Shown here: positions 505-25,185 of the stretch, in pieces
How positions within the stretch are numbered: the stretch's first letter is position 1
Layout: every line of letters starts with the position of its first letter
Source: a virus
Direction: 5' to 3' (one strand)
Length of the DNA stretch: 25,185 nt
Virus record (IMG/VR): IMGVR_UViG_3300048433_000215
Coordinates: 1 to 25,185 of that record
Program-made: the position numbers and the translations under genes
The notes under the pieces: generated by a model
Told to the model about the DNA's origin: nothing
What the model saw: the letters and a program-made list of their open reading frames with translations, nothing else
Databases searched by the model: none

Positions 505-981
505 ATGGCATATTCGGGTAGATACAGAGTAAAAAACACAAAGAAGTACGAGGGAGACCATACTGTTGTGGTATATCGTTCTCTGTGGGAGAAACATGCA
601 TTCAAATGGTGTGATAACAACCCCAAAGTAGTAAAATGGTCTTCTGAAGAGGTTATTATACCATACTTATATGAAGTTGACAAGCGTTATCATAGATATT
701 TTATGGATTTAAAAATGGTCATGGAAGATGGTAAGACTTGGTTGGTTGAGATTAAACCAGATAAAGAGACTAGAATTCCTACAGGTAGTCGCAGAACTAA
801 AAAGTTTATATCTGAAAGTATGACTTACGTAAAGAATATAAATAAGTGGGAAGCGGCAAATGAATATGCAAAAGACCGTGGATGGAGATTTGTTATCTGG
901 ACTGAAAAGAATGAACCACTCAAGTCTCTTATTCCTAAATCAACAAAACCACTGAGACCTTTCACCAAAAGAAAAAGATGA
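505..981 (+). CDS. 4: Head completion protein gp4 (nuclease fold)
   Basis: This 158-residue protein matches T4 gp4 (also called 50/65). The N-terminus MAYSGRYRVKNTKKYEGD closely resembles the T4 protein, and the length is similar. In T4 it is a minor head protein needed to finish DNA-filled heads before tail joining. It has the PD-(D/E)xK layout of a TnsA-like endonuclease: E29, D68 in YFMDL, and E82-I-K84 in LVEIKP, which fits a role in trimming or protecting packaged DNA ends. It is the first gene of the rightward late operon, 36 bases after a TATAAATA box. Its stop overlaps the next start (ATGA at 978-981), so the radical SAM gene is translationally coupled to it. The family call is firm; catalytic activity is inferred from the motif. 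Confidence 0.9.
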   Translation: MAYSGRYRVKNTKKYEGDHTVVVYRSLWEKHAFKWCDNNPKVVKWSSEEVIIPYLYEVDKRYHRYFMDLKMVMEDGKTWLVEIKPDKETRIPTGSRRTKKFISESMTYVKNINKWEAANEYAKDRGWRFVIWTEKNEPLKSLIPKSTKPLRPFTKRKR

Positions 982-2708
982 AACACCATGGATTAATAAT
1001 AACTGGTGCGTCCTTTACATACCCGATAGGTAAAGGATTTGTTCCAGAACATGCAGTTTATGATTCTGGTAATTGGGAAGAAATGCCAGTTAGGGGAACG
1101 GGCGCTCATAGAATTGCAACCCATTTAAGAAATACTGGGAAGTGGGACATTGAAGTTGTAGACTTTCTTGAGGCATGGGACGATAGTGAACTACATGAAT
1201 TTTGTGAAACTCGAATCACTAAGAATACCAAATGGATAGGGTTCAGTGTGTTCTTCACATATTCAATTCACGAAGCACCACCTATAGTAAGAAAACAAAA
1301 CAGACTCATAAAACACATTAAGGAAAGATACCCTTGGGTAAAAATCGTAGTAGGTGCAAATAAACTAGTTAATGTTATCCGACACGAAAATGTCGATTAC
1401 TTTTGTATAGGTAATGGAGAACATGCAATTGTCGCTCTGTGTGATTATTTTACTGGTAATGCAAAACACCCTAAAGTAAAAGTCAAAATTAATCCTTTCA
1501 ATCAAATAGACATGGTAGGAAAGGAATTTGTTATTATGGATTGTTTTAATGACTATCCCGCATTTCCTCATAAGAATCCACACACATCATACGAAGAAAG
1601 AGATTTTATACAAAAGGATGAAGTATTGACCATGGAGTTGTCTAGAGGATGTATATTCAAATGTACATTCTGTGACTACTCCCCGTTAGGTGTTAAGGGT
1701 GACCATAGTAGACATGCAGAAAACTTTGAAGAAGAACTAAGAGAGAACTATGAGAAATGGGGTGTAACACATTACTGTCTTGCAGATGAGACCGCTAATG
1801 CAAGTTCTGAGTACATATCAAAGTTTGCAGACGTTGTAAGAAAACTTCCCTTTCAACCTCAGTTCCATGGATTTATTCGTGGTGACTTGTTAATAAGACG
1901 AGCAAAACAAGACTGGGACAATATGATTGATATGGGATTCACCAGTCAGTCTATGGGTATTGAAACATTTAACCATGCATCTGGTAAATCTATTAACAAA
2001 GGTTTTTCTCCATTACAGATGCAAGAGGGATTACTTGCATCCGCAGAGTATTTTAAGAAGAATAGACATACTGGTAATCATTACAATCAAACATTGACAA
2101 TGATTGCGGGATTACCTCACGAAACATTTGAAACTTTAGATAAATCTGGAGAATGGTTGAATAAGTATTGGTGGAATCAAGTTACAATACATCCATTGTA
2201 TATATCACAACATGTCTCAGATGGTGTTGATGCAGTTTCAGATATAGAAAAAGACCCGTCCAAATATGGATACACGTGGAGAGATAAAACTCTTTTAGAT
2301 AAAGCTATAGAAAATTACTATTATCAACACTGGGAAGTAAAGAGAGTAATAAACCCAAACCCCTCTTTACGACAAATGGTAGATAATTTTCCAAAAGATG
2401 CTGCTCTAAAGGAAGAGTTAAAAAACCGTGCAGAAAAAACATTTCAACAAGTATGGGTACATCCAAGTGGAAATTACGACCAAATTGACATGTTAGAATG
2501 GACTACTAAGTATCAATCAGACAGAATAATCAAACTAGGAAGACCAGAAAGTCTATCTGGATGGCATATGGGTTGGTACAAACAACTAGGATATGACTTG
2601 AGAGAGACTTACGAAGAAAAACTACCCGATATAACAAGAAAAGACGTAAAGAAATATTTCAAAAACCTCGAAAGATATAAGAAAGATAAGTTAAATTGGT
2701 ATAAATAG
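978..2708 (+). CDS. Radical SAM protein with B12-binding-like N-terminal domain
   Basis: This 576-residue protein has the radical SAM signature C225-x3-C229-x2-C232 within LSRGCIFKCTFCDYSP, which would bind a [4Fe-4S] cluster and S-adenosylmethionine. Residues about 1-165 look like the Rossmann-type cobalamin-binding domain that precedes radical SAM cores in the class B (B12-binding) group: GAHRIATHLRNTGKWDIEVVDF, then WIGFSVFF, WVKIVVGA and VDYFCIGNGEHA as successive strands. The DxHxxG cobalamin ligand motif is absent, so B12 may not be bound through a histidine, or at all. The C-terminal third has no motif I recognise. It is coupled to gp4 by a 4-base overlap and is therefore expressed with virion genes. 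The substrate is unknown; methyl transfer or oxidation on a peptide, sugar or RNA are all possible. It appears intact and seems to be an accessory gene placed among structural genes. Confidence 0.85.
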   Translation: MKHHGLIITGASFTYPIGKGFVPEHAVYDSGNWEEMPVRGTGAHRIATHLRNTGKWDIEVVDFLEAWDDSELHEFCETRITKNTKWIGFSVFFTYSIHEAPPIVRKQNRLIKHIKERYPWVKIVVGANKLVNVIRHENVDYFCIGNGEHAIVALCDYFTGNAKHPKVKVKINPFNQIDMVGKEFVIMDCFNDYPAFPHKNPHTSYEERDFIQKDEVLTMELSRGCIFKCTFCDYSPLGVKGDHSRHAENFEEELRENYEKWGVTHYCLADETANASSEYISKFADVVRKLPFQPQFHGFIRGDLLIRRAKQDWDNMIDMGFTSQSMGIETFNHASGKSINKGFSPLQMQEGLLASAEYFKKNRHTGNHYNQTLTMIAGLPHETFETLDKSGEWLNKYWWNQVTIHPLYISQHVSDGVDAVSDIEKDPSKYGYTWRDKTLLDKAIENYYYQHWEVKRVINPNPSLRQMVDNFPKDAALKEELKNRAEKTFQQVWVHPSGNYDQIDMLEWTTKYQSDRIIKLGRPESLSGWHMGWYKQLGYDLRETYEEKLPDITRKDVKKYFKNLERYKKDKLNWYK

Positions 2709-4916: not shown

Positions 4917-6599
4917 ATGGCAGAATTAACCATATCACACCTCACTGAAGCAGTTCAGATTGAAGGTATTAAAAGTGAAAAAAGAGACGAGAAACAGATT
5001 AGCGAACTTGCTAGTCTGAATAAATCTTTTGCACAATACTTTAAATCTATGGCAAATCAGGCAGGCGACAATCTTGAAAAGGAACGTGAAAAGAAGAAAG
5101 AAAAGAGTGGTGGCGACCAACCTAGATTTGGACAGATGGTAGGTGATGCAAAGGGGATGGGTTTCCTTGGAGTAATTGGTGCTATTGGTGCGGCACTTAC
5201 GGGACTTGTTGTTGGTTTTCTTGATGGTATCAAAGACTCTTTCAAATTAATAACTCCAAAGTTTATAAAAACTGCCTTTAGTAACAGAGTAATCAAACCA
5301 ATTACAATGTTATTTGATGCACTAGGAGATATCTTCCGTAAAGCTGGAACAGGACAAATCTTAAAAGGTGATACCTTTAAAGTGTTTGGTAGATTTACCA
5401 CAACTCTAGAAAGTATTGCAAAAAGGTTTAAGAGTGTTATTGCTAGTGTTCGTTCTGGTTCAACTAAGTTCTTTGAGTTCTTTGGTAAGATAGGTGACTT
5501 TTTTAAATCTATCGGTAGAAATATAAAAGCGTTTTTTCTAAGTTCAGATGTCATAAGGAATCAACTCAAGAATTTTTCTAAACTGGGAGAGACATTTAAA
5601 ACAATTACAAAAGGTGCATCTGAAGGGGGAAGTATCTTTGCTCGACTTGGTGAAGTCGTTAAACCATTCTTTAATGTGTTCAAAAGAATAGGTAAGTTCT
5701 TAGGTGGGCCGATTACAGTTGCAATCATTAGTATCATTGATGGGTTTATTGGTTCATTCAAAGCGTTCACTGATACTGAGGGTGGAATCTTTGCAAAAAT
5801 TAGTGCCGCTATTAGTGGTTTCTTTGCGGGAATTACATCTGGTTTTATTGGTGGTTTACTTGACCTTGGTAAAATGGTAATTGGTTTTGTTGCGGGTCTA
5901 TTTGGATTCGACTCCTTCAAAGAAAAACTTGCTGAGTTTTCATTCCAAGATATGATTTTTGATGGATTGATGTTCCCATTCAGAGCAGTCATGTCTCTGT
6001 TTGATGGTAAAGACGGTAACATGTTCTCAACCCTAGCGTCAGATTTGATAGAGGGTATCAAAAGTATCTTTAGTGGTATTACTGGATTTGTCAAACAGAA
6101 GTTTAAAGCTATTGGTAGTTCAATAGCAGGATTCTTTGGATTTGGTGGTGACGAAGAACCAGAAGTAAAAGAAATTAAAGAAGGTAAAGTAGTTCCTAAA
6201 GTAGAAAAACAAGTTGTTACACCACCACAAGACGATGATTTCCATGAAGTTCGAGGTACAGACGAAGACGGATTCAATTATACAGAAACAAAAAGAGCCC
6301 CTAAGTCTGAACAAGATATGATGGCGGCAGAAGAAGAACGTTACAAGAGACACCTAAAACTTAATCAAGACCGTATGGTTAAGTATAATGAACAAGGTAA
6401 GGGTGGTAGTAAAGGTGCAATGTATACGGAAGAACGTATAATGAAATTGCAAGCAAAACTAGATGAATTACAGGCAAAACAATCTGCGGGTAATACAGTG
6501 ATTGCACCATCAACAACAACTAACACAACCAACTCAAGTAGTCAAGCAGTATATGGTGACGCTTCACCCGCTACAGATGACTTAGACAGGGTTGCATAA
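4917..6599 (+). CDS. Tape measure / baseplate hub protein (gp29-like)
   Basis: The 560-residue product fits a tail length tape measure protein; T4 gp29 has 590 residues. It starts with a polar helical, charged region (residues 1-70, ending KEREKKKEKSGG), followed by repeated hydrophobic segments. Examples are FLGVIGAIGAALTGLVVGFL at about 79-98, FLGGPITVAIISIIDGFIG in the middle, and ISGFFAGITSGFIGGLLDLG with VIGFVAGLFGF later. Phe-Lys rich amphipathic helices lie between. From about residue 430 it becomes polar and coiled-coil-like, and it ends in a Thr/Ser-rich tail. Hydrophobic segments of this kind are thought to enter the host inner membrane during DNA ejection. The position after gp26 and its frameshift extension agrees. 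The stop overlaps the IscU start (TAATG at 6597-6601). Sequence identity with T4 gp29 is not obvious to me, so the call is mainly from composition, length and order. Confidence 0.75.
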   Translation: MAELTISHLTEAVQIEGIKSEKRDEKQISELASLNKSFAQYFKSMANQAGDNLEKEREKKKEKSGGDQPRFGQMVGDAKGMGFLGVIGAIGAALTGLVVGFLDGIKDSFKLITPKFIKTAFSNRVIKPITMLFDALGDIFRKAGTGQILKGDTFKVFGRFTTTLESIAKRFKSVIASVRSGSTKFFEFFGKIGDFFKSIGRNIKAFFLSSDVIRNQLKNFSKLGETFKTITKGASEGGSIFARLGEVVKPFFNVFKRIGKFLGGPITVAIISIIDGFIGSFKAFTDTEGGIFAKISAAISGFFAGITSGFIGGLLDLGKMVIGFVAGLFGFDSFKEKLAEFSFQDMIFDGLMFPFRAVMSLFDGKDGNMFSTLASDLIEGIKSIFSGITGFVKQKFKAIGSSIAGFFGFGGDEEPEVKEIKEGKVVPKVEKQVVTPPQDDDFHEVRGTDEDGFNYTETKRAPKSEQDMMAAEEERYKRHLKLNQDRMVKYNEQGKGGSKGAMYTEERIMKLQAKLDELQAKQSAGNTVIAPSTTTNTTNSSSQAVYGDASPATDDLDRVA

Positions 6600-7021
6600 T
6601 GGCATACTCACAAAAAGTAATAGACAGATTCGAGGGTGTATTAAATGCACCAGAACAATTTAGTGTTGGTAGATTTGACCCTAATGACCCAGACATTGCA
6701 ACAGGAATGGCAGGCGCTCCCGCATGTGGAGACGTTATGAAACTGCAATTGAAACTAGACGAAAACGAGATGATAGTAGATGTCAAATTCAAAACCTATG
6801 GATGCGGAAGTGCGATTGCATCAAGTTCAATGTTCGTTGACTTACTTAAAGGCAAAACAATTGACGAAGCAAAACAGATTAAAGATAAAGAAATTGCAGA
6901 TGCTCTTGACTTACCTCCAATCAAACTCCACTGTTCAGTCCTCGCAGAAGACTCTATAAAAAAAGCAGTAGAAGATTGGGAACAGAAAAATAATAAATTC
7001 GAACGGGCAATGTTTCCGTGA
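6599..7021 (+). CDS. iscU: Fe-S cluster scaffold protein IscU
   Basis: The 140-residue protein is a full-length IscU. It has the three conserved cluster-binding cysteines and the modulating aspartate: GAPACGDVMKLQ (C43, D45), KTYGCGSAIASSS (C69) and KLHCSVLAEDSI (C112). It also has LPPIK (105-109), nearly identical to the LPPVK motif through which the HscA chaperone binds bacterial IscU. IscU builds [2Fe-2S] and [4Fe-4S] clusters with sulfur from the cysteine desulfurase IscS; no desulfurase is seen here, so the host's would be required. The start ATG shares a base with the tape measure stop, so it is translationally coupled to a virion gene. It ends in a 4-base overlap (GTGA) with iscA. The family call is very secure; what the phage uses it for is inference. 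Confidence 0.95.
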   Translation: MAYSQKVIDRFEGVLNAPEQFSVGRFDPNDPDIATGMAGAPACGDVMKLQLKLDENEMIVDVKFKTYGCGSAIASSSMFVDLLKGKTIDEAKQIKDKEIADALDLPPIKLHCSVLAEDSIKKAVEDWEQKNNKFERAMFP

Positions 7022-7347
7022 TTGAATTGACTGACGCTGCTGTACAGAAATGTATTCAGAGAACTGAAGACAGACATATGAAGATGATACGTCTTGGTGT
7101 TACTTCAGGGGGATGTGTTGGTTTTGAATATGTTATTGAGTATGCGGATGAGTCTAAAGACGATGATATTGCTTTTGACTATGGTAAGTTTACTATAGTT
7201 ATTGATGAGATGTCATTACCTTACTTAGAAGAATCTACTTTAGATTGGACTAAGCAAGGTCTTAACGAGTATTTCAAGATAACAAACCCTAGAGAAGTAT
7301 CATCCTGTGGATGTGGGACTTCTATAGGATTTGACCCTTTACCATAA
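7018..7347 (+). CDS. iscA: A-type Fe-S carrier protein IscA/HesB
   Basis: The 109-residue protein carries the A-type carrier signature: one cysteine in TSGGCVGFEY (C33) and a C-terminal CGCG (C97, C99). Its length is that of bacterial IscA (about 107). A-type proteins receive clusters from IscU and pass them to target enzymes, or bind iron. Translation starts at a GTG (7018) that overlaps the iscU stop, so the two are coupled. The gene is the last of the rightward operon, and its end overlaps the end of the leftward TonB-dependent receptor gene by 9 bases. I see no terminator hairpin between them. ErpA or SufA would be alternative names within the same family; pairing with IscU favours IscA. 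Confidence 0.93.
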   Translation: MIELTDAAVQKCIQRTEDRHMKMIRLGVTSGGCVGFEYVIEYADESKDDDIAFDYGKFTIVIDEMSLPYLEESTLDWTKQGLNEYFKITNPREVSSCGCGTSIGFDPLP

Positions 7348-8814
7348 AAGATTCCAACTAAGTCTAAAGATACGTCCACCAGCCGCATAGTCTGGAATAT
7401 ACTCATACGAGTTATCTAATGCGTCTTCTATCTCAAGTTTGTAAGTACCTATTGCACCATTAGTGAAACTATAACTGATATTAAATGTACTGACATCGTC
7501 AATTAGTCTACCATCAAAGTCAACACCTTTATCAAACTCTCCTAGATACTCAATAGTAAATCCATAGTCTGTATATGCAATCTTTGTTCTATAGTTTGGA
7601 ACTCTTAGTTTATCTGAATCTGTAATCTCACCATATACAAATACCTTACCAATGTTCTTTTCTAATCTAATACCTCTAGACCTATATTCACCAGTGTTGA
7701 TATAAGAATAAGCATTCATATCAAAATCTATTCCTTCATCAAACTTATAGTAATACAGAGATAATCCTTTGTATCCTAATTCAGTTCCACGTCCTTGTTC
7801 TGGTAACAAGTTAGGATTTGCTGATACCCAAGAATCACCAAACTGTTCGTATAGATTAGGTAGTCGATAACTATTACCCATAGAGAATCTATATCCATTG
7901 TTTTCTAATCCTAGTCTTACAATACGTTCACCTTCTTCATACCTATATCCAAGACTTACATTGTCATTAGACCAAATATAGTAAGCAGCGTTTGTATATC
8001 TTTTTCTCTCACCGTAAGTTTCTTTCTGTGCAGTGACACCTAGTTCATGACCATTGTCATCATATAAAAGGATATCACCATAAGTTCTATCGGACTCAAT
8101 TACAGTTCCAGTATTATAGATTGATTCATTTGTAGTATGACCTAGAGTAAATCTATCATGGTCAATTGAAACATTAATCTTCTGACCTTCAACATTACAA
8201 TCGTCAGTCAATACAAAGTATTCATTATAACAACCGTCATAATCATACGAGTAGTCTACAACTTCTAGATTGTAGATATCATGTCCTAATTTAAATGTCT
8301 TGTTTTCATACCAATCGACTTCATCGTTGTCTGTCTTAACTGAACCAGATGTTCCACGATAAGTTGCGATTTGAAAGAATTCATGCTCTACCATCATCTT
8401 AGTTTTATCTGTCGATACTGTGGTATAGAATCCTTTTCCAAAGTCATCCTCTAATAGAACAACTCCTGCCATTGAACCACTACCATATCTAACACTGTTT
8501 GCACCAGATATAATTGTAACCCTTTGATTAGTTGATAGGTCTTGACCAAAGTCATACCATCCAGAACTAGGGTCATTTACTGGGATACCGTTCTTAAAAA
8601 CACCAGTATGTTTTGTATCTGTTCCAGACAATTGAAGACCATTAAATGCCCCAAGGACGAATGGTTTGGTAGGTTCGATTGTTGTTAATATGTTGTCTGA
8701 GGTAGGGTCTGCAACACCTTGGTATATTTTTGCACCTACTACAACAACTTCTTCGATTTCATTTGCATTAACGTTAAATGACATCAACGCTAATATTAAT
8801 ATTATTTTTTTCAT
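7339..8814 (-). CDS. TonB-dependent outer-membrane receptor, BtuB-like
   Basis: The 491-residue product has a signal peptide (MKKIILILALMSFNVNA, cut near residue 17) and then IEEVVVVGAK, a typical TonB box. A plug domain follows, with NGIPVNDPSSGWYDFG and RVTIISGANSVRYGSGSMAG, equivalent to the RVExIRGPxSxxYGSxAxGG motif of the family. The rest is a beta-barrel of alternating hydrophobic/aromatic strands ending in an aromatic residue (RLSWNLLW), as outer-membrane barrels do. The segment NSYRLPNLYEQFG...NPNLLPEQGRGTELGYKG recalls BtuB (SYKAPNLGQLYG...NPNLDPEKSKQWE). BtuB imports cobalamin using TonB energy. It is shorter than usual (about 590-700), with a reduced plug N-terminus and compact loops, but it is uninterrupted. 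AAGGA precedes the ATG. It follows gp32 after a strong terminator. The substrate may be cobalamin, a siderophore or something else. Confidence 0.88.
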   Translation of the reverse strand: MKKIILILALMSFNVNANEIEEVVVVGAKIYQGVADPTSDNILTTIEPTKPFVLGAFNGLQLSGTDTKHTGVFKNGIPVNDPSSGWYDFGQDLSTNQRVTIISGANSVRYGSGSMAGVVLLEDDFGKGFYTTVSTDKTKMMVEHEFFQIATYRGTSGSVKTDNDEVDWYENKTFKLGHDIYNLEVVDYSYDYDGCYNEYFVLTDDCNVEGQKINVSIDHDRFTLGHTTNESIYNTGTVIESDRTYGDILLYDDNGHELGVTAQKETYGERKRYTNAAYYIWSNDNVSLGYRYEEGERIVRLGLENNGYRFSMGNSYRLPNLYEQFGDSWVSANPNLLPEQGRGTELGYKGLSLYYYKFDEGIDFDMNAYSYINTGEYRSRGIRLEKNIGKVFVYGEITDSDKLRVPNYRTKIAYTDYGFTIEYLGEFDKGVDFDGRLIDDVSTFNISYSFTNGAIGTYKLEIEDALDNSYEYIPDYAAGGRIFRLSWNLLW

Positions 8815-8825
8815 TATTTTTCCTT

Positions 8826-8851
8826 AAAAAAAAGGGAGACCGAAGTCTCCC
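8826..8851 (-). terminator. Rho-independent terminator after gp32
   Basis: On the minus strand a perfect 7-bp stem GGGAGAC/GTCTCCC (8851-8834) with a UUCG tetraloop is followed by eight T (8833-8826). It lies between the gp32 stop and the start codon of the TonB-dependent receptor, 11 bases before that start. Confidence 0.92.
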
Positions 8852-8856
8852 CTTCC

Positions 8857-8875
8857 AACGTTACTAGTAAACGTT
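8857..8875. repeat. Imperfect palindrome at the gp32 stop
   Basis: AACGTTACT and AGTAAACGTT form an inverted repeat with one bulged base, just upstream (minus sense) of the terminator hairpin and touching the gp32 stop codon. It may add to 3' end structure; no protein site is recognised. Confidence 0.45.
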
Positions 8876-9792
8876 TAGTCTTCAGCAGCTAACTTTGCGA
8901 AGTATGATAAAGTATCATCTTCGTCAGTCGATGCTGTGATATTAGGTTCTGGTGCAGATGCAAGAACTTGTGGTTCTTTTTCTTTAGCAGCAACTACTTC
9001 CGCAGTCTGTGTTAAAGAATCATTCTTTACCGTTGAACCCGACCCAGTTGATTGACCCAGTACAACCTCTAAACGACTTTTCAGTTCGTCATAAGATTTG
9101 TATGAACCAGTATCAGCAAACTCACTTGAATCATGTAACTGATTGTATGTTGCTTCGAGTTTAGTTTCGTCACCTTCAAACAATGCAGAAGCGACTTTGA
9201 ACTCCGATTTATCATAGTTTCTGTAACCCGCAACATTACGAATCTTCAGTTGAAAATCCGCACCAGTCCAAAAGTCAAATGGATTGATTGGTTCTTCGCC
9301 AGGAAATTCAGGTTGCATCTTATCCATAACCTTATCAAAGATTTTCTTACCGAAGTCATAAAGGAATACTTTACCTTCGTTAGTAGGATTAGATGGGTCA
9401 CTAACAACTAAGATGTTTGCAACATAGTGAAGTCTACGCTTCTGTCTACGTGCAGTTTCTTTGTCTTCATCGATACCTGTGTTCCAAAGACGTGAGTTAT
9501 ATTCACTCACTGGGTCATTGTTACCTAGAGTAGTCAGAGACTTCTCAACGTACCATTGACCTGTTGGCCCTTTAAAGAAATGGTCAAAGTATCTTACCCA
9601 TGGTAATTCTGACCCTTCTGCGGCAGGAAGAAAACGAACAACTGCATATCCGTTACCACTGTCATCAACAGTTGGTTTCCAGAAACGAGTATCTTCGTAT
9701 TTGTTAGTTTGTTTTGTACCAGACATTTCCTGTGCGGCAGATGCCAGTTTGGACACATCGGTACGATTGGTTTTTAAGTTTGCAAAAGACAT
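8875..9792 (-). CDS. 32: Single-stranded DNA-binding protein gp32
   Basis: The 305-residue protein is T4 gp32, which coats single-stranded DNA in replication, recombination and repair. The N-terminal basic region (residues about 1-20) and the core are recognisable: GYAVVRFLPA, HYVANILVVSDPSNPTNEGK (T4 has YWANILVVKDPAAPENEGK), FLYDFGKKIFDK, and NPFDFWTGADFQLKIRNVAGYRNYDKSEF. The last part is the usual acidic, Ser/Thr-rich tail ending YFAKLAAED, which contacts other replication proteins. The zinc-binding cysteines of T4 gp32 are absent; the equivalent stretch reads GNNDPVSEYNSRLW, as I recall for marine relatives. Expression fits a perfect sigma70-type promoter at 9856-9884, with GGAG before the start. 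Confidence 0.95.
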   Translation of the reverse strand: MSFANLKTNRTDVSKLASAAQEMSGTKQTNKYEDTRFWKPTVDDSGNGYAVVRFLPAAEGSELPWVRYFDHFFKGPTGQWYVEKSLTTLGNNDPVSEYNSRLWNTGIDEDKETARRQKRRLHYVANILVVSDPSNPTNEGKVFLYDFGKKIFDKVMDKMQPEFPGEEPINPFDFWTGADFQLKIRNVAGYRNYDKSEFKVASALFEGDETKLEATYNQLHDSSEFADTGSYKSYDELKSRLEVVLGQSTGSGSTVKNDSLTQTAEVVAAKEKEPQVLASAPEPNITASTDEDDTLSYFAKLAAED

Positions 9793-9855
9793 ATTTATAT
9801 TCTCCGTATATTTGCGTATTTTAGTTTATCCACTTTATTCATAATATAGTTTCGT

Positions 9856-9884
9856 ATTATAACACTACAATCAAGTAATGTCAA
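9856..9884 (-). promoter_or_regulatory. Sigma70-type promoter for gp32
   Basis: On the minus strand TTGACA (9884-9879) and TATAAT (9861-9856) are both perfect consensus with a 17-base spacer. TG at the -14 position (GTGTTATAATAC) makes it an extended -10. It would start transcription about 60 bases before gp32. Confidence 0.9.
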
Positions 9885-10156
9885 CCTTTATTTAGGGAAA
9901 GGTCACCACCCTTTTCGAGAAAGTTAAGCTTCATTGCTTCAAACTCAATCTTCTCTTTGACAGATGTCGAAATATATTTCTTGACATCCTCAATCTCTAA
10001 GTTGTTCTGTTCACACAGATAAACAACCGTATCCATGTATGACATAGACTTTGTTCTCACACAGTCTTCAACCATACGTGTAAATTTCTTCTTGTTCATG
10101 AAGTTAGATTCTTCTTCCGAGGAATCTACTCCACCCATAATCATATCAACTTTCAT
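9881..10156 (-). CDS. 33: Late transcription coactivator gp33
   Basis: The 91-residue product resembles the marine form of T4 gp33, which bridges RNA polymerase, the sliding clamp and late promoters marked by TATAAATA. Typical stretches are KKFTRMVEDCVRTKSMSYMD, VVYLCEQNNLEIEDVKKYIS and KEKIEFEAMKLNFL. It lies next to gp32, as in T4 (59-33-32). The ATG at 10156 overlaps the end of the upstream gene and has GAGGATATAGAAG before it; a later in-frame start at 10136 (MGGVDSS) is possible. A minus-strand late box at 10178-10185 lies just upstream. Many late-type boxes in this window support the presence of this factor. Confidence 0.8.
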   Translation of the reverse strand: MKVDMIMGGVDSSEEESNFMNKKKFTRMVEDCVRTKSMSYMDTVVYLCEQNNLEIEDVKKYISTSVKEKIEFEAMKLNFLEKGGDLSLNKG

Positions 10157-16035: not shown

Positions 16036-16110
16036 TGGTGCCCCCGCATGGAATCGAACCACGAGTTGTCCGTTCGTAGCGGACTGTTTTATCCGTTAAA
16101 CTACGGAGGC
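16036..16110 (-). tRNA. tRNA-Arg (anticodon ACG)
   Basis: A 75-base cloverleaf on the minus strand. Acceptor GCCTCCG pairs with CGGGGGC (one G-T), D-arm GTTT/AAAC, anticodon stem GTCCG/CGGAC with loop CTACGAA, T-arm CGTGG/CCATG with loop TTCGATT, and an encoded 3' A-CCA. Anticodon ACG reads CGU (and CGC/CGA if deaminated to inosine). Confidence 0.92.
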
Positions 16111-16120
16111 AATCGTTGAT

Positions 16121-16196
16121 TGGCCGTCCCACAAGGACTCGAACCTTGAACACAAGTTTAGAAGACTCGGATGATATCCAGTTTCACCATGAGACG
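16121..16196 (-). tRNA. tRNA-Arg (anticodon TCT)
   Basis: A 76-base cloverleaf on the minus strand. Acceptor CGTCTCA pairs with TGGGACG, D-stem GTGA/TCAT, anticodon stem CGAGT/ACTTG with loop CTTCTAA, T-arm CAAGG/CCTTG with loop TTCGAGT, discriminator G and encoded CCA. Anticodon TCT reads AGA, a codon used often in the phage genes here. Confidence 0.9.
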
Positions 16197-16214: not shown

Positions 16215-16243
16215 ATTATATCACTATTGATATTAAATGTCAA
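16215..16243 (-). promoter_or_regulatory. Sigma70-type promoter before tRNA genes
   Basis: On the minus strand TTGACA (16243-16238), 17 bases, TATAAT (16220-16215): perfect consensus. It lies about 20 bases before the first tRNA gene and overlaps the end of the gene at 16240-16869. Confidence 0.9.
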
Positions 16244-16869
16244 GTATTATCATGCATGGATTTTGTGTGAATCTCTACATTTTTTGATACAGGGATTTTA
16301 ATGTTTTTGTGACTATGATATAAATGAAACTTGACCTCTTTAAATTCTTTGAACATCTCTGTCCATATAGGTCTCCAGTTTCCCGCAAGTCTTACTGTAT
16401 TGTTTGTAGAACGGTCACTTTCTAAAATTAGGTCAGTGAAACTACCCAGATTCATATCAAAGATACTATCGAATCCATAGATGTGAACTTCGGTTGCTCT
16501 CATCTTTGCACATGCATAGTGAACTGCCATGTGACCACAGTTAAAGTTAGTTGCGGCATACTTTGGGTCTCCCGCATACTTAGGGATATGTGAATAGAAT
16601 CCCTTGATAAGGTGAGAGTATTTCATATAGAAAGTACCAGAATTCTCCATCCAGATTTTAGGTCTAGTTCCAAGAATCCAGTCATACATGTCTAACTTAA
16701 CATGACCTTCTTGTAGTGCCTTCATCATCTTGAAGTCCACCATACAGGTTGCGTGAACTTCTTTGCGTGGGATTTCAAATGGTGGCATATTACAAACTAA
16801 CAGTTTGCCAGGCGTTCCCCTTTCGAACAATCCCGCATTGTCACCGTTACCCAATACATTAACTCTCAT
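16240..16869 (-). CDS. Hypothetical phage protein, possible nucleotide-sugar/Rossmann fold
   Basis: The 209-residue protein opens MRVNVLGNGDNAGLFERGTP, a start reminiscent of GNGxSL-type proteins related to DUF115 and phage glycosyl/sialyltransferase-like families. Later segments are KLLVCNMPPFEIP, HATCMVDFKMMKALQ, FNCGHMAVHYACAKMRATEV and HIYGFDSIFDMN, giving alternating strand-helix order. The family call is weak. It lies between a thermonuclease gene and two tRNA genes. A sigma70-type promoter inside the thermonuclease gene (16941-16969) points to separate expression. Confidence 0.7.
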   Translation of the reverse strand: MRVNVLGNGDNAGLFERGTPGKLLVCNMPPFEIPRKEVHATCMVDFKMMKALQEGHVKLDMYDWILGTRPKIWMENSGTFYMKYSHLIKGFYSHIPKYAGDPKYAATNFNCGHMAVHYACAKMRATEVHIYGFDSIFDMNLGSFTDLILESDRSTNNTVRLAGNWRPIWTEMFKEFKEVKFHLYHSHKNIKIPVSKNVEIHTKSMHDNT

Positions 16870-16877
16870 AATTTACT

Positions 16878-17285
16878 CTACAGTTGTACTAATTCTCTAT
16901 TTGCCAAATGTTGGTCTGCAATAATATCTTTAGACTGTCCATTATACTCCACTGCGTGGTAATTGTCAACCAAATATTGATTAATATTAATACGACTACC
17001 GTCATCAAAATCAACAAGGAATTCACCAAGAATACGTCCGAACTTACCTTTACCATCCTTTGTTGTTTTAAGAATAGGAGAAGTACCTAAACTCTTCTTT
17101 AGAAATGCTTTTGCAGCTAATCCATATTTCTTTTCTACGAGGTCACGTGTTCGTGATTCTGGGGTGTCCACGCCAAGAAGTCTGATTCTTGACTTTCGAA
17201 GCCAAACACCAAAACCCAAATCGATGTCAACGTCAACGGTATCACCGTCAACAACACGTACAACTTTTGTTCTATATTCATACAT
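16878..17285 (-). CDS. Thermonuclease-family protein (SNase-like)
   Basis: The 135-residue protein has the staphylococcal nuclease fold signature: VVRVVDGDTVDVDIDLGF (D13-G-D15-T), RIRLLGVDTPES (R35, E43) and KFGRILGEF (R84), matching the catalytic Arg-Glu-Arg of the family. Those residues and calcium cleave DNA or RNA phosphodiester bonds. No signal peptide is seen, so it would act inside the cell, for example in host DNA or RNA turnover. Such genes are common in marine T4-like phages. It overlaps the upstream small gene by a few bases. Confidence 0.9.
   Translation of the reverse strand: MYEYRTKVVRVVDGDTVDVDIDLGFGVWLRKSRIRLLGVDTPESRTRDLVEKKYGLAAKAFLKKSLGTSPILKTTKDGKGKFGRILGEFLVDFDDGSRININQYLVDNYHAVEYNGQSKDIIADQHLANRELVQL
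16941..16969 (-). promoter_or_regulatory. Sigma70-type promoter inside the thermonuclease gene
   Basis: On the minus strand TTGACA (16969-16964), 17 bases, TATAAT (16946-16941), perfect consensus, within the last third of the thermonuclease coding region. It would transcribe the gene at 16240-16869 and the tRNAs. Confidence 0.85.
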
Positions 17286-17499
17286 TCTTCTTTCCTTTAT
17301 TCCATCCGAAATGAGTATGAATTATATTCATCTTATCTTCGGCTTCTGCGATTTTACTAATCTGTGTTTCAATAGATTCTACGATATCAGGATGTTCTCC
17401 TATACCAGCAGCGTTTTTCATGTACACGTCAACATTTGCTTTTGCAACGGCAATATCACCGTCTAATTTTCTTACTAATGCTTCAAGTAGATAATTCAT
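17278..17499 (-). CDS. Small helical protein
   Basis: The 73-residue product (MNYLLEALVRKLDGDIAVAK, NVDVYMKNAAGIGEHPDIVE, then IETQISKIAEAEDKMNIIHT) is mostly alpha-helical. I recall similar small proteins with NxAGIGEHPDIV in marine T4-like phages, without function. It overlaps the glycosyltransferase upstream and the thermonuclease downstream. Confidence 0.75.
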   Translation of the reverse strand: MNYLLEALVRKLDGDIAVAKANVDVYMKNAAGIGEHPDIVESIETQISKIAEAEDKMNIIHTHFGWNKGKKNV

Positions 17500-18148
17500 T
17501 TATCTGTCTCCTTATTACTTCGTTCCCTTTTTTTCCAGTGTGATGGATTATTTTAGGGTTCTTTACTTGTATGTTATCTATATAGTCCAACCGTAAAGTG
17601 TTGTACACATGAGGTATAGGTTTAATATACGACATCTTCGTAATCTCATCCCCTCCCATCATTATATAAAGAACCTCTTGGTCTCCTTGAACAGGGTTTC
17701 GAATACATTCGTCTGCCCAACTCTTCAGGATATTTGGAGTGTTTTCCACCAGAACAACTCCAGAGTTATACCAACTTCCAAGTTCACTTCTACGTGTACT
17801 CCAAGGTCGGTCTTTTACCATACCCAACTTACCATATTCTGATAGATTGAATATTGGTGATATGTCATCGGTTACTTCACAATCAGTATCCAACCAACAA
17901 ACTTTCTTTACACCATCTAACTTAGTTGCATCTAGAATCGCACGAGGTTTCTTAAACCATCCCTGTGCTTCACTCTTAACTGTTATTACTAAATCAAAGT
18001 CTTCTTCTGCTTTTGCACGTGCCTCTTTAGACATACCAAAATCTGCAAGAACAATAGGTATAGTATTGTGTTTTTTATAGTTTTCTAAAAACCATGGTAA
18101 TTGCCATTCTGTGTTATTATCACATCCTGTCAAAAAAACTTTAAGCAT
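17483..18148 (-). CDS. Glycosyltransferase, GT-A fold (GT8-like)
   Basis: Read from the ATG at 18148 (MLKVFLTGCDNN), the 221-residue protein has a DxD motif (D87-T-D89 in VCWLDTDCEV) that binds metal and nucleotide sugar, then SWYNSGVVLV, GDQEVLYIMM and a late IIHHTGKKG, the order seen in family 8 and related GT-A enzymes. The upstream gene ends in the same bases (GATGCTTAA), so the overlap is 8 bases. It is the last large gene of the surface-sugar cluster. Sugar donor and acceptor are unknown. A longer start further upstream (MTLSMLKV) is possible. Confidence 0.85.
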   Translation of the reverse strand: MLKVFLTGCDNNTEWQLPWFLENYKKHNTIPIVLADFGMSKEARAKAEEDFDLVITVKSEAQGWFKKPRAILDATKLDGVKKVCWLDTDCEVTDDISPIFNLSEYGKLGMVKDRPWSTRRSELGSWYNSGVVLVENTPNILKSWADECIRNPVQGDQEVLYIMMGGDEITKMSYIKPIPHVYNTLRLDYIDNIQVKNPKIIHHTGKKGNEVIRRQINELST

Positions 18149-18788
18149 CGATAATGTCATATCCTTCTTTCCAATTGTGTTTTGCAAGACATCCTTCTTC
18201 TACTTGAATGGTAGTAAATGTGTCCCGTGCTTCTGCAACAAATGGATGACATTCTTGTAACCAAGGGAAGGTATCTAAATTTAAATATACATCGGTAGGT
18301 TTTGCATACAATGGTGCATTCTCTACTAATAGTTTACCACCTTTGGGAGTAACCCAATACGCATGAGCGCCAGGAAAATATCTTTTGGTGGTTAAAGGAT
18401 TAAGTCCCAGAAAGTTTGGTTTGTTCCATTTACCGTAAGATGGATGACCTATGTTCATTACATAGTTAGGAAACAACATTGGTAAAGGTGTAACCATAAC
18501 TGCATCATGTTCAAAGATAATAAAGTCTTCGTTACCCTTAGAACAAGCTTCCCACAATGCGTAGTGTGATAAGAATGCAGAAATACAATTTAAATTACGA
18601 GAATATTTCTCATCAAATTGTATTGGGTCAATACCTCTTGTCTGTAATAGTTCTACAGGATTATCTGCGGGGGTGATTGCATCAAACTTTTCAATCGTTA
18701 GTCCATGACGTTTACCCGATTCAATACACCTATCAGCAACTTGAACAGACGATGGATTATCTTTTATTGTAATTACAAATGCTTTCAT
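18141..18788 (-). CDS. Glycosyltransferase family 25-like protein
   Basis: The 215-residue protein starts MKAFVITIKDNPSSVQVADR, the opening of LPS glycosyltransferases of family 25, with CISAFLSHYALWE (residues 68-80), an EHD in IFEHDAVMV (93-95) and AYWVTPKGGKLLVENA. GT25 enzymes add galactose or glucose to lipopolysaccharide in bacteria. The gene overlaps its neighbours by 4-8 bases. A GT25-like paralogue lies two genes upstream. Confidence 0.85.
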   Translation of the reverse strand: MKAFVITIKDNPSSVQVADRCIESGKRHGLTIEKFDAITPADNPVELLQTRGIDPIQFDEKYSRNLNCISAFLSHYALWEACSKGNEDFIIFEHDAVMVTPLPMLFPNYVMNIGHPSYGKWNKPNFLGLNPLTTKRYFPGAHAYWVTPKGGKLLVENAPLYAKPTDVYLNLDTFPWLQECHPFVAEARDTFTTIQVEEGCLAKHNWKEGYDIIDA

Positions 18789-18970
18789 ATTAAAAAACTC
18801 AATTGACTAGTATTAGTTGTAGTCGTTATTCTCCCTTTATTATCATATGTAGTAACATAATAAGTTGTACTTTCAACTTTATAATCTCCGCCTGCAACTT
18901 TATTGACTCGTTCAACAGTATACGAACGGTCTGTTACCTTGGGTATTGATGATACGGGTGGTATTTCCAT
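18785..18970 (-). CDS. Small hypothetical protein (61 residues)
   Basis: Starting at the ATG at 18970, which overlaps the stop of the upstream gene (TAATG), the product begins MEIPPVSSIPKVTDRSYTVE. It continues KVAGGDYKVESTTYYVTTYD and ends in a Thr-rich stretch. It looks like a beta-rich, repeat-poor domain. There is no visible ribosome site, so expression would depend on coupling. It overlaps the next gene by 4 bases. A longer frame to 19039 is open but would lie inside the glycosyltransferase gene. Function unknown. Confidence 0.6.
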   Translation of the reverse strand: MEIPPVSSIPKVTDRSYTVERVNKVAGGDYKVESTTYYVTTYDNKGRITTTTNTSQLSFLI

Positions 18971-19683
18971 TATTGTGTTGTAGTTGACTTCAACCCTTTC
19001 TGTATTGTGGTGTAATATGGATATACGACTTGTAACCAAGGAAACAATTGTTTACACATTAGTGCATCGTTTGGCCACATTCCGATTTCTTTCACCTTAT
19101 TTATCAGTTTCTTAGCTGCCTTAGGTGATATCATATATGCAGAGTTACCCGCAAGACCTTGGGGTACATCCCAATCATCTACTGAAGGAACACCCTGTAG
19201 TCCATGTATTTTTTTCACTTGTGCATCAAATACGTGCGCTCTACGTGTCGCACCTATTGGATTATTTAAGCCTATTATACCACCCTTCCACTCAGAAGTC
19301 AAGTCCTCTGGTAAAAGAGAATCTGTAAATAATGCATCGTGTTCCAGTACAACAATAGTCTCATCAAGGTCAATCGACTTCTGCCAACATCTCATATGAG
19401 ATATTAGACATGCAACACGATTACTATGATTCGCAGTTTTGTAGTGAGTAAGACGTAGTCCTGTTTTCATATCAAGACCGTCTTGGTGTTCATCTAGAGG
19501 ATACGTCCATGCAACACCATTCATATCCAACTGGTCTATCCCTTCACCAATAGTCTTTGGTGTGGTAGCGGGTAGAATGATAGGTTCTAGTTTTGTTCCA
19601 GTTTTCTTTATTGATTCAATAACATGTCGAGTCGCAACTGTGGACTCGTGATTGTTTATCATACTAATTATGAAGGCTTTCAT
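18970..19683 (-). CDS. Glycosyltransferase family 25-like protein
   Basis: The 237-residue protein starts MKAFIISMINNHESTVATRH (ATG at 19683; an ATG at 19689 adds two residues) and shows the GT25 pattern: NRVACLISHMRCW (residues 88-100), VVLEHDALF (EHD 114-116), GIIGLNNPIGATRRAHVFDA and AYMISPKAAKKLI. It is a diverged paralogue of the gene at 18141-18788. A sigma70-type promoter at 19274-19302 lies inside it. Confidence 0.85.
   Translation of the reverse strand: MKAFIISMINNHESTVATRHVIESIKKTGTKLEPIILPATTPKTIGEGIDQLDMNGVAWTYPLDEHQDGLDMKTGLRLTHYKTANHSNRVACLISHMRCWQKSIDLDETIVVLEHDALFTDSLLPEDLTSEWKGGIIGLNNPIGATRRAHVFDAQVKKIHGLQGVPSVDDWDVPQGLAGNSAYMISPKAAKKLINKVKEIGMWPNDALMCKQLFPWLQVVYPYYTTIQKGLKSTTTQ
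19274..19302 (-). promoter_or_regulatory. Sigma70-type promoter inside the sugar cluster
   Basis: On the minus strand TTGACT (19302-19297), 17 bases, TATAAT (19279-19274). It would transcribe the downstream part of the cluster (18970 towards 16878) separately. Confidence 0.75.
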
Positions 19684-20416
19684 CAACATCTCTTACATAC
19701 TCCCATCTCTCTGATAGGTAACATCCACCATGATAACTTTCATGATAAAATCCAAACGGTTCAGATAGTATTTGATACCATCCCTCTTCTGCACTTTTTA
19801 ACTTCTTATCTTTATATAGTGAGTCCACTAAATCGGTATCCCAACATTCTCTGGGATGGATTATCAATGCATCATTGATGTAGTAGGTAGTCTCTTTTCC
19901 CATACCTTTAATCTTATTGAAGTCATGTGTACCATAGTAATTCATACAGTTGAATCCCTTCGGAATTAACCTGTCATATGAATCCTTAATCATATCTTTC
20001 CAAGGGAGTTGGTCAGACACGATTACGTCAAACCTTGTTCGAATAATCATATCATATTCTTTAGGTATCGACTTCATCATCTCATTGTGTATGAGAAGTT
20101 GTTTGTGCCAGTTCGCACTTGCGTATGCGTGTCTTAACTGACTGTTGTGATAGGTAGGGTCTTCTTTATGTCTCTCCAAGTAATGAGGAAAGATATCTCT
20201 CCTTAGTGTACTTGCGTCATCGGGATAGGGTTCGGTGTCGAATACTGGATGGTACAGATTCTCAGGGTCATCAAAGTAGTAGTCAGCATCATAGTCTTGA
20301 CCCTTCCATGTACCCGTGAACATCTTGTCGTGAGGAATTATCTCTTGTGTTCTATCCATCCATTTCTGGTGACAGTATTCATTCCATCTACCAGACAAAC
20401 ATAATGCAGTCTTCAT
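19664..20416 (-). CDS. Glycosyltransferase-like surface carbohydrate protein
   Basis: The 250-residue protein opens MKTALCLSGRWNEYCHQKWM. It contains RHAYASANWHKQLLIHNEMM, then YDMIIRTRFDVIVSD, a pattern (CLSGR at the start, then IIRTRFD) seen in the surface-carbohydrate group of uncharacterised glycosyltransferase-like proteins in bacteria and large viruses. The RTRFD motif would serve as an acidic metal/sugar site. The ATG directly follows the upstream stop (TAAATG). Family membership is recognised, activity is not established. Confidence 0.7.
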   Translation of the reverse strand: MKTALCLSGRWNEYCHQKWMDRTQEIIPHDKMFTGTWKGQDYDADYYFDDPENLYHPVFDTEPYPDDASTLRRDIFPHYLERHKEDPTYHNSQLRHAYASANWHKQLLIHNEMMKSIPKEYDMIIRTRFDVIVSDQLPWKDMIKDSYDRLIPKGFNCMNYYGTHDFNKIKGMGKETTYYINDALIIHPRECWDTDLVDSLYKDKKLKSAEEGWYQILSEPFGFYHESYHGGCYLSERWEYVRDVDESLHN

Positions 20417-21754
20417 TTACCAACTCAATAGATATCTTTCTAGGTCTTCTGGTGTTCCCAGACCCCACATTTGTGATGCGGTGAATGTTGCAATATGTTT
20501 TCCATCTTTAATTGCTTCATTAAATACAGGACAAACATAGAATTCGTTGTTAACTCTAATATCATCTTCAATCATTTTCTCTGCGTATTCGCAATAATCA
20601 CTACCCTTTTTCCAGTAATAAAATCCTACGGTTGCGTTATCACTGATTGGATTTTTCTCTGCAACTCTATAAACTCTTCCAGAATTATCTGTCTTTGCAT
20701 AACTCCACTTAGGGTGTGTTGATTTGAAAGTAACAATACCACCATCTACTGAGGTTGATTGCATTTTATACATGAAATCTAGAGAGTTCCATTCTACGTA
20801 CTGGTCTGAGTTTGCAATAAACAATTGTTGGTCATTATCAATATACTGTTTTGCAAGTAGTGTTGTACATGCAGCACCTTCAGTGATACCATCTACTTCT
20901 ACAATAGTACAGTCAGGTGCAATTAGATTTAACATAGAATCTAAGTTATACTTTTCTCTGTGTTCCTTCTGTACAATAAAGATATAGTTTGCATCAAGAC
21001 CTAGATTTTCAACTACATGTTGAATCATAGGTTTACCATTAACATCAATCAATGGTTTTGGAAAAGTATATCCTGCCTTCTGAAAACGACTACCCGCACC
21101 CGCCATAGGAATAAGAACATTGAGTTCTTTATCTTCCCATTTAGGTATTGTATTTTGGGGTTCTTTTATTCTATCAAGTAACTTAACGTTGGTGTCTGCG
21201 GGAGAACCAACTCTTATTACATTTGCACCAGAACCATATGCAGAAGTTAATCCTGTCGGAGAATCTTCTACTATCACGGTTTCATCAGGATAGACTCCCA
21301 TCTTGGACATTGCTTTCCAATAAATTTCTGGATGAGGTTTGTTGTTTTCAACATCCCAACTACTTAATACAATGTCACACCATGGAGTTAACATGAGTTG
21401 TTCTAAACAATTCTCTACGGTCTTTTCAATTGCATTGGAACATACACCAATCTTATATCCTTCACCTCTAAGTTGTTCGAATAACTCTATAATATCATGG
21501 TTTGGTTTAATCGTATTCAGAGTCATATACGTATATGCCTGTTTACGAGTATGAATTTTTCTTTTATCTTTATCAGGGATTTCTAAAATATCCAACTTCT
21601 GGTCAGTTGTCAATCCATCGAATCTTAAAAGATGTTCATTTAGAGTTATTGGAAGGTAATCATTCTTTTCCAATGCTTGATTCAATGCATCAAAATGCAT
21701 TTGTTTGGTGTCTACAAGAACACCGTCTAAATCAAATAAAACTAATTTTATCAT
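20417..21754 (-). CDS. HAD phosphatase-sugar nucleotidyltransferase fusion
   Basis: The 445-residue protein joins two enzymes. Residues 1-205 form a beta-phosphoglucomutase-type HAD domain: DLDGVLVDT (D8, D10), CSN (S106), NKPHPEIY (K139) and VEDSPTG (E163, D164). Residues 212-445 form a sugar-phosphate nucleotidyltransferase: VLIPMAGAGSRFQKAGYTFP followed by KPL, then IFIVQKEHR, NSDQYVEW (metal site), and GTPEDLERYL at the end. Such enzymes make NDP-sugars and the HAD partner removes or moves a phosphate, so the fusion could carry out two consecutive steps in activating a sugar for the glycosyltransferases of the cluster. All key HAD and GxGxR residues are present. Confidence 0.92.
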   Translation of the reverse strand: MIKLVLFDLDGVLVDTKQMHFDALNQALEKNDYLPITLNEHLLRFDGLTTDQKLDILEIPDKDKRKIHTRKQAYTYMTLNTIKPNHDIIELFEQLRGEGYKIGVCSNAIEKTVENCLEQLMLTPWCDIVLSSWDVENNKPHPEIYWKAMSKMGVYPDETVIVEDSPTGLTSAYGSGANVIRVGSPADTNVKLLDRIKEPQNTIPKWEDKELNVLIPMAGAGSRFQKAGYTFPKPLIDVNGKPMIQHVVENLGLDANYIFIVQKEHREKYNLDSMLNLIAPDCTIVEVDGITEGAACTTLLAKQYIDNDQQLFIANSDQYVEWNSLDFMYKMQSTSVDGGIVTFKSTHPKWSYAKTDNSGRVYRVAEKNPISDNATVGFYYWKKGSDYCEYAEKMIEDDIRVNNEFYVCPVFNEAIKDGKHIATFTASQMWGLGTPEDLERYLLSW

Positions 21755-21766
21755 GCACTTGCTATC

Positions 21767-25177: not shown

Positions 25178-25185
25178 ACGTTCAT

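Follow-up and report, generated by a model that had tools for sequence, protein, structure and literature searches.

Phage-borne metabolic genes mostly encode cytoplasmic enzymes. Vitamin B12 (cobalamin), a cofactor for methyl and radical chemistry, is limiting for many marine microbes. Phage genes that have been linked to it by annotation include cyanophage cobS and other B12-related auxiliary genes; cobS and its kin concern B12 synthesis, whereas a phage receptor would concern uptake. The closest known uptake protein, BtuB of Escherichia coli (PDB 1NQE, 1NQH and 2GSK), is a plugged 22-strand barrel of 614 amino acids, and the B12 transporter barrels BtuB1 and BtuB3 of Bacteroidetes (PDB 8BLW, 8P97, 8P98 and 8BMX) work with surface lipoproteins such as BtuG, according to the titles of their PDB entries. 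Genes annotated as TonB-dependent receptors (TBDRs) have already been reported for phages, among them a SusC in the marine megaphage Mar_Mega_1 (PMC9723777), a 'TonB-dependent receptor protein' in the pelagiphage Skadi-1 (PMC10504331) and TBDR annotations in hot-spring phages (PMC6302217). The word 'TonB' is absent from the main text of a pelagimyophage survey (PMC7029224), of the Melnitz report (PMC9004378) and of a global-ocean catalogue of auxiliary metabolic genes (PMC11360552), and no paper among the matches listed from the open-access literature describes a phage-encoded BtuB-type receptor, which is not proof of absence. Here we describe a gene at positions 7339–8814 of IMG/VR record IMGVR_UViG_3300048433_000215, a stretch of 25,185 bases from an uncultivated virus that was analysed at its full length (the window). 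The gene is a virus-specific, compact relative of BtuB; phage TBDR annotations being in print, what is new is a BtuB-type, virus-only and syntenically conserved family.

Computation places the gene in a phage context, among T4-like markers that include genes for gp2 (a DNA end protector), a tail tube protein, gp26, a tape-measure protein and gp32. It is intact, and the complete TBDR that a preliminary description had read from the DNA is present, with the following parts:

7339..8814, minus strand: BtuB-related TonB-dependent receptor, 491 amino acids including the signal peptide, an intact and complete open reading frame (ORF), assigned from the ORF, Pfam, profile and structure
8764..8814, minus strand: signal peptide, residues 1–17, with cleavage after VNA (by eye, from the sequence and a low-confidence model tail at residues 1–23)
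8734..8757, minus strand: TonB box IEEVVVVG, residues 20–27 (motif and structural alignment)
8446..8733, minus strand: shortened plug domain, residues 28–123 (Pfam Plug and conserved columns)
7342..8433, minus strand: predicted 22-strand beta barrel, residues 128–491 (predicted models)

The same flanks recur at 99.94–99.95% nucleotide identity over 16.8 kb in contigs of other records, one of 103 kb (L003) and one of 149 kb (L006), which excludes a chimeric assembly of the receptor gene and agrees with the earlier assignment of the gene to the phage. Relatives are encoded on at least 105 distinct IMG/VR contigs, some of them near-copies of one another, so the gene is not the one-off rarity it had first seemed, although four members tried by tblastn had no credible match in 50,697 GenBank phage records (the lone match was a Salmonella fragment at 13% coverage and E = 0.01; the presence of Skadi-1 in that collection was not established). 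These relatives come from three IMG/VR scans: one with a first alignment (33 loci), one with a second alignment (101 stretches, 80 loci of these being listed) and one with a divergent member as query (39 loci, with 25 contigs outside the 80). Three of the contigs carry IMG numbers (2786546798, 2788500184 and 2778261681) that do not look like those of metagenomes. Best-segment identity to the window protein ranges from 29 to 100% among the 80 loci, of which 79 (L002 was left out) were used for neighbours and proteins. They gave 67 distinct proteins, and from these came a final alignment of 55 rows whose members are 486–548 amino acids long.

BtuB itself as query matched 50 GenBank phage records; among the 25 listed are contigs of bacteria deposited as phage, fragments from the human gut and short pieces that carry no annotation. 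A bacterial BtuB-like query matched 73, those listed being of the same sorts. Among viral predicted structures there was one clear match, to the SusC-type protein BFVD A0A8D9FQQ5 of an uncultured marine phage (E = 4e-11, with our first structure model). This protein and the SusC-like TBDR of Mar_Mega_1 (which may or may not be the same protein) resemble the present case as TBDR genes of marine phages, but the BFVD protein has 805 residues, 11% identity and a different receptor class.

The receptor gene is under purifying selection: the median ratio of nonsynonymous to synonymous substitution rates (dN/dS) is 0.128 and the maximum 0.396, over 93 non-independent pairs of 80–99% identity. That the gene is an artefact, either a piece of host DNA that the assembly fused to a phage contig or a passenger with no function, is suggested by the uncultivated origin of the source contigs and by the L080 locus, where the ORF read from match coordinates had an internal stop (one of 79 loci), though a 561-residue open frame exists there. 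This is extremely improbable given the identical flanks in other records, the purifying selection and the phage genes found on both sides of relatives in conserved order (in group D, described below, a helicase in 35 of 38 loci and an ATPase-like gene in 35 of 37). Nor was a close cellular homolog found, either in pattern scans of genomes, which gave plug-level matches only, or in a profile search of 694 sampled genomes.

The N-terminus of the window protein, read by eye as MKKIILILALMSFNVNA, resembles a signal peptide. The TonB-box motif [IVL]EExxV[VIT] follows in 49 of the 55 aligned members, and four of the six misses (L091, L092, L099 and L103) had entered the alignment with 57–63 N-terminal residues cut; the structural alignment pairs residue 7 or 8 of BtuB with residue 18 or 19 of the model. 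The plug is recognizable by the motifs GTDTKHT..NG.PVND...GW.DFG and GANSVRYGSGSMAG, by invariant residues in the 55-row alignment that include N75-G76 and N80, and by Pfam Plug (PF07715), which matches the window protein at E = 8e-7 and 30.0 bits (cut-off 23.9) over profile positions 44–107 only and matches all 23 members of alignment A2. The plug noted earlier therefore stands, with one correction. The distance from the TonB box to the GTD motif is 44 residues in five members and 48 in 40 (45 measured) as against about 64 in BtuB, so that the N-terminal part of the plug is some 16–20 residues shorter and the first part of the domain has been trimmed. The barrel holds a cysteine pair (C195/C206) in 55 of 55 members. 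The terminal aromatic residue remarked on in the preliminary description is indeed a tryptophan in the window protein; phenylalanine, tyrosine or tryptophan ends just 29 of the 55. An AlphaFold2 model built from the 55 phage sequences is a plugged barrel with a predicted local distance difference test score (pLDDT) of 87.6 and a predicted template-modelling score of 0.86, in which only residues 1–23 fall below a pLDDT of 50. It replaced a first model (23 sequences, pLDDT 75) with a poor plug, and both models have 22 long barrel strands by DSSP count. TonB_C was absent from 20 receptor-bearing records and from phage C48C1 (21 records), and coupling would therefore need the TonB of the host.

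The retained TonB box and plug favour active transport over a decoy, as had been proposed. Under the decoy explanation an altered BtuB-like protein would exclude superinfecting phages by competing with host receptors for TonB or for membrane insertion, or would soak up BtuB-dependent competitors, whether other phages or agents of the colicin type. Phages and colicins are described as exploiting TonB-dependent transporters for entry (PMC7360065), and a complex of FhuA with the exclusion lipoprotein Llp is among our structure matches, which shows only that such exclusion exists. A passive decoy would need neither box nor plug, however, and an additional receptor usable by phages should normally promote superinfection. 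Exclusion genes are also usually small and fast-changing, in contrast to a gene with fixed synteny in group D and a median dN/dS of 0.13. We regard a role in exclusion as improbable.

The family is closer to BtuB than to other classes of TBDR. Searched with a profile of the 67 proteins, BtuB of E. coli reached 87.5 bits (E = 4e-28, model positions 29–508 of 510), and the other K-12 TBDRs scored 18.5 (CirA), 14.4 (FepA), 11.9 (PqqU), 5.5 (FecA), 5.3 (FhuA) and 0.5 bits (Fiu). With the A2 profile, E. coli BtuB ranked first among PDB sequences (E = 8e-19). Structural comparison of the 55-sequence model, a plugged barrel as the preliminary description had expected, gave BtuB as top match, and the first 15 of 50 rows were all B12 transporters: 11 of E. 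coli BtuB (Z 33.2–36.5, the best at 2.6 Å over 472 residues, with model residues 15–491 aligned) and four of Bacteroides BtuB (rows 12–15, Z 31.8–32.5, those of B. thetaiotaomicron). The heme receptor ChuA came next at Z 31.1, tied with the last of them. Foldseek ranks 1–14 were likewise B12 transporters, and with the first, weaker model BtuB filled the top 11 rows (Z 27.1–29.5), the lower of which tie with OprC (27.0) and ZnuD (26.9). Among NCBIfam families, TIGR01779 (TonB-B12) was matched by 36 of the 55 members, the most of any, and the BtuB model NF007926 by 25, matches being counted by E value and not against the curated cut-offs. No SusC/RagA model is among the seven families matched by the 55 members, and a SusC-type receptor was rejected on that ground.

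In a quick tree of 72 rows, the 22 phage rows form one clade (Shimodaira–Hasegawa approximate likelihood ratio test support, SH-aLRT, 100; stem 1.71), which is nested in a larger group of 46 rows (SH-aLRT 91). The other rows of that group are BtuB, all but one of the 23 BtuB-like bacterial rows and a single generic row whose branch is very long; the tree has long branches and does not resolve the exact sister of the phage clade. Its input comprised every second bacterial homolog and 20 generic rows, with L168 and L255 out and three of the 25 named phage representatives outside the non-redundant set. The phage proteins share with E. coli BtuB the plugged 22-strand barrel, TonB box, plug motifs and C-terminal region, but differ in identity (about 19% by structural alignment), in their length and box-to-plug spacing, in the C195/C206 pair and in forming a separate virus clade. 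They are like BtuB1 and BtuB3 in barrel structure; no BtuG-like surface lipoprotein was identified beside the phage genes, where no search aimed at such proteins was made.

We also examined the loci of the nearest bacterial homologs, by searching the family profile in sampled genomes of two phyla (398 and 296 genomes), those to which a Marinospirillum and a Flavobacteriales genome belong. Fifty loci were retained as the best bacterial matches. A cobalamin-class riboswitch was found at 47 of them (10/12, 20/20 and 17/18), and it lay upstream on the same strand in all 43 loci compared, the other four (L167, L168, L172 and L178) having no clear ORF. At generic TBDR control loci (PF00593; 20 of 30 loci scanned, first phylum only) the count was 0 of 20. 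Low-scoring profile matches had a riboswitch in two of eight cases, those at 49 and 58 bits, and in none of the six under 33 bits. The contrast between 47/50 and 0/20 has p = 1e-14 by Fisher's exact test, for homologs that are not independent and a control that does not include the second phylum. These riboswitches place the phage family nearest to receptors that bacteria put under B12 control.

We therefore favour TonB-driven import of a cobamide during infection as the best reading, and consider it rather probable; the substrate, the time of expression and the benefit to the phage are what we infer. The receptor would be made during infection, in the early or middle phase if the promoter position described below is a guide, then exported and inserted into the outer membrane by the assembly machinery of the host, where its TonB box would couple it to host TonB-ExbBD for energy. 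Cobalamin or a related cobamide would pass into the periplasm and, by host transport, into the cytoplasm. The extra B12 would feed the methyl and S-adenosylmethionine (SAM) cycle, through methionine synthase and then SAM synthetase, and also B12-dependent radical SAM enzymes, both of them needs for cofactor that grow in a phage-making cell. In group D the user could be the methionine synthase of the host, supplying a phage MetK; for the window lineage and some group C phages, B12-dependent radical SAM enzymes may take that role.

A wider account, which we offer tentatively, is that a bacterial B12 transporter was captured once, long ago, and founded a clade of miniaturised importers found only in viruses, stable in the replication-and-metabolism region of several marine T4-like lineages, by which infected cells scavenge B12 for a phage-boosted methyl/SAM cycle and for radical SAM enzymes. 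If true, host MetH would run the SAM cycle with three phage enzymes, MetK, a nucleosidase and an adenine phosphoribosyltransferase, and the outer membrane would be where phages intervene directly in marine competition for B12. A conserved, phage-made active transporter of that membrane would mean that some marine phages alter the uptake of the infected cell, and viral control of B12 import would tie infection to vitamin competition; whether TonB-dependent B12 uptake goes up on infection has become a testable question. As a BtuB-type receptor of unusually small size, with its plug shortened, the protein would also interest structural biologists.

Several results weigh against cobamide import. 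Kinship with BtuB is not enough to settle which ligand is carried. The calcium site of BtuB is described as a cage of five aspartates, and cobalamin contacts are available from simulations (PMC7360065). These positions are no more conserved in the phage proteins than other aligned ones (43 sites, p = 0.45; 29 barrel sites, p = 0.20; permutation), and we rejected ligand-site conservation as proof of substrate since it is not significant. The residue numbers of the aspartate cage are those we take to be correct, checked only as aspartates in the BtuB sequence. Well-kept sites are D195 (67/67), Y579 (66/67), D95 and R497 (64/67 each) and D193 (54/67); low counts are those of D179 (0/67), D241 (2/67, gapped in 64) and D230 (12/67), the last being alignment-dependent, as a Tyr-Asp that is invariant or almost so falls at this position in other alignments. 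At E = 1e-3 none of TIGR01779, NF007926 and PRK10641 matches the window protein, which was accordingly filed as BtuB-related and not as BtuB; it has weak heme-receptor matches over about 30 residues, and a heme/transferrin model is matched by 20 of the 55 members. A scan of 12 phage loci (247 kb) for cobalamin riboswitches found none, a further difference from BtuB, although such control is common in bacterial btuB and not required.

The gene content of the phages adds to these points. B12-binding domains (PF02310) occur in just 7 of 20 receptor-bearing records, over the cut-off in two, and were not found in C48C1. The ribonucleotide reductase (RNR) of the 149-kb relative is of class I with a separate small subunit, and a B12-dependent RNR as the reason for import was rejected there (PF02867 is present in 12 of the 20 records, the class being typed in this relative only). 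Genes of the Fe-S (iron–sulfur) and CobS-like kinds are not confined to receptor-bearing phages, examples being NifU_N in C48C1 and cobS in cyanophages. In the 149-kb relative (G001; L122 16143–19136, plus strand) the gene for the large RNR subunit, which ends in a glutaredoxin domain at the C-terminus, precedes that for the small subunit.

The surroundings of the receptor gene in the window are as follows:

8875..9792, minus strand: gp32 single-stranded DNA-binding protein, the upstream neighbour (PF08804, E = 4e-38; phrog_224)
8835..8852, minus strand: intrinsic-terminator-like hairpin and T run, between gp32 and the receptor gene
9856..9884, minus strand: sigma-70 consensus promoter-like site, 12/12 with extended −10, before gp32
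7018..7347, plus strand: IscA-like Fe-S assembly protein, convergent with the receptor gene with a 9-nucleotide overlap (PF01521 and TIGR00049, above cut-off)
6599..7021, plus strand: IscU/NifU_N Fe-S scaffold (PF01592, E = 7e-41)
978..2708, plus strand: radical SAM protein, a potential cobalamin consumer (NCBIfam, B12-binding radical-SAM relatives)

The receptor gene starts 60 nucleotides past gp32 on the same strand. The window holds 13 sigma-70-like sites (15.1 expected from shuffles), the sole 12/12 match being the one before gp32, and two terminator-like sites (1.7 expected), a count at chance level. Judged from the DNA alone, the site before gp32 could possibly serve early or middle transcription of gp32, with the receptor gene reached by read-through. 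The gp32 protein is closest to that of phage C48C1 (67%), then to that of Pelagibacter phage HTVC008M (54%).

Position between gp32 and the tail genes, which the preliminary description had emphasised, holds for the window but is lineage-specific: the gene is found widely, in other settings elsewhere, and is directly adjacent to gp32 only in the closest relatives of the window. In L004, L037, L038 and L039 it lies approximately 2.7–2.9 kb upstream of gp32. Such a position could suit a receptor for the phage's own use, one that replaces a blocked host receptor or alters the surface so that progeny adsorb better to sibling cells. The authors of the Skadi-1 report took their TBDR gene as a clue to the receptor of that phage; it lies between tail tube and capsid genes of an HTVC010P-type phage (PMC10504331). 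A protein made after entry could not aid that entry, and at the 40 group D loci the gene keeps company with an ATPase-like gene and a helicase and is away from tail genes, so we consider own use very improbable.

From the receptor gene toward the tail genes, the order is IscA-like, then IscU-like; the tandem (6599–7347, plus strand) stands directly after the tape-measure gene. These neighbours raise the alternative that the receptor is a TonB-dependent importer of another scarce ligand, such as a ferric siderophore, heme or a metal complex, with iron destined for phage Fe-S and radical SAM genes. NifU_N is found in 9 of 20 receptor-bearing records, but also in C48C1, where the receptor was not found; Fe-S genes were for that reason rejected as receptor-specific partners, and the IscU/IscA pair stands beside the receptor in the window lineage only (79 loci compared). 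The weak heme/transferrin matches, the BtuB ligand sites that are not specially kept, the placing of ChuA right behind the B12 transporters and a FecR-domain gene in the 149-kb relative would all fit another ligand, whereas the profile, the structure ranking and the riboswitch test all point to the B12 branch. We think another ligand unlikely. Of the nutrients named in the preliminary description, cobalamin is accordingly the best supported and a siderophore less so.

As to possible users of imported cobamide, the best NCBIfam relatives of the window radical SAM gene are B12-binding radical-SAM enzymes, at scores far under the cut-offs. The gene sits between a head-closure-like gene (505–981) and gp2. 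A second, similar-looking gene of 548 amino acids (by eye) is located at 946–2592 of the 149-kb relative.

Neighbours of the relatives were clustered over the 79 loci, with counts made by sequence cluster and annotation on example loci. In group B (12 loci), the gene preceding the receptor encodes an uncharacterised protein of about 450 amino acids in nine; in the L047 example (8644–9996, plus strand) a coiled coil and membrane segments can be made out by eye, while PHROG gave no match and Pfam none above threshold, only weaker ones. All 17 loci of group C have a ClpP-like gene no more than two genes upstream. The next downstream gene belongs to the phrog_459 'peptidase' cluster in 14 (CobT-like by our own reading only) and to a radical-SAM cluster in three (L053, L054 and L056), those of L054 and L056 being annotated as B12-binding-type under the cut-offs. 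A CobS-like gene (phrog_249, 'porphyrin biosynthesis') lies within 6 kb downstream in 16 of the 17; that of L050 scores 76 bits against TIGR01650 PD_CobS, far under its cut-off of 558. In seven of the 17 the gene directly upstream of the receptor encodes a secreted-looking protein of one sequence cluster (by eye; L056 9336–9932, plus strand, with no Pfam or PHROG match), possibly a periplasmic or surface partner. Loci L057, L061, L062 and L064 have a further, distinct setting.

In group D (40 loci), a UvsW-type helicase (phrog_16; 'UvsW' by our own reading) is next downstream in 35 of the 38 loci with a downstream neighbour, and an ATPase-like gene (phrog_1250, function not known, P-loop by eye) is next upstream in 35 of the 37 with an upstream neighbour. 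Downstream sequence of 5.5 kb or more is available for 26 of the loci, and in these the MetK cluster occurs in 16, adenine phosphoribosyltransferase in 22 and a methylthioadenosine/S-adenosylhomocysteine (MTA/SAH)-nucleosidase-like gene in 12. In L075 (14345–16489, plus strand) the three stand in a row as a SAM recycling module, which is also seen in group D relatives.

A few features lie further from the receptor. In the 149-kb relative (G001; L121 8228–13032, plus strand), genes for a CsgG curli-pore protein, a FecR-domain protein and a CHASE2 protein with an adenylate/guanylate cyclase are clustered, the last being a sensor-like cyclase; CsgG is already known in pelagimyophages (PMC7029224). 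The window from 16240 to 25185 (minus strand) is a long run of genes that resemble glycosyltransferases, sulfotransferases and methyltransferases by eye, including a HAD-phosphatase/nucleotidyltransferase-like fusion at 20417–21754, and is perhaps a surface-sugar modification island. At approximately 16036–16196 (minus strand; coordinates converted from the 149-kb relative), are two adjacent tRNA-Arg genes with anticodons TCT and ACG.

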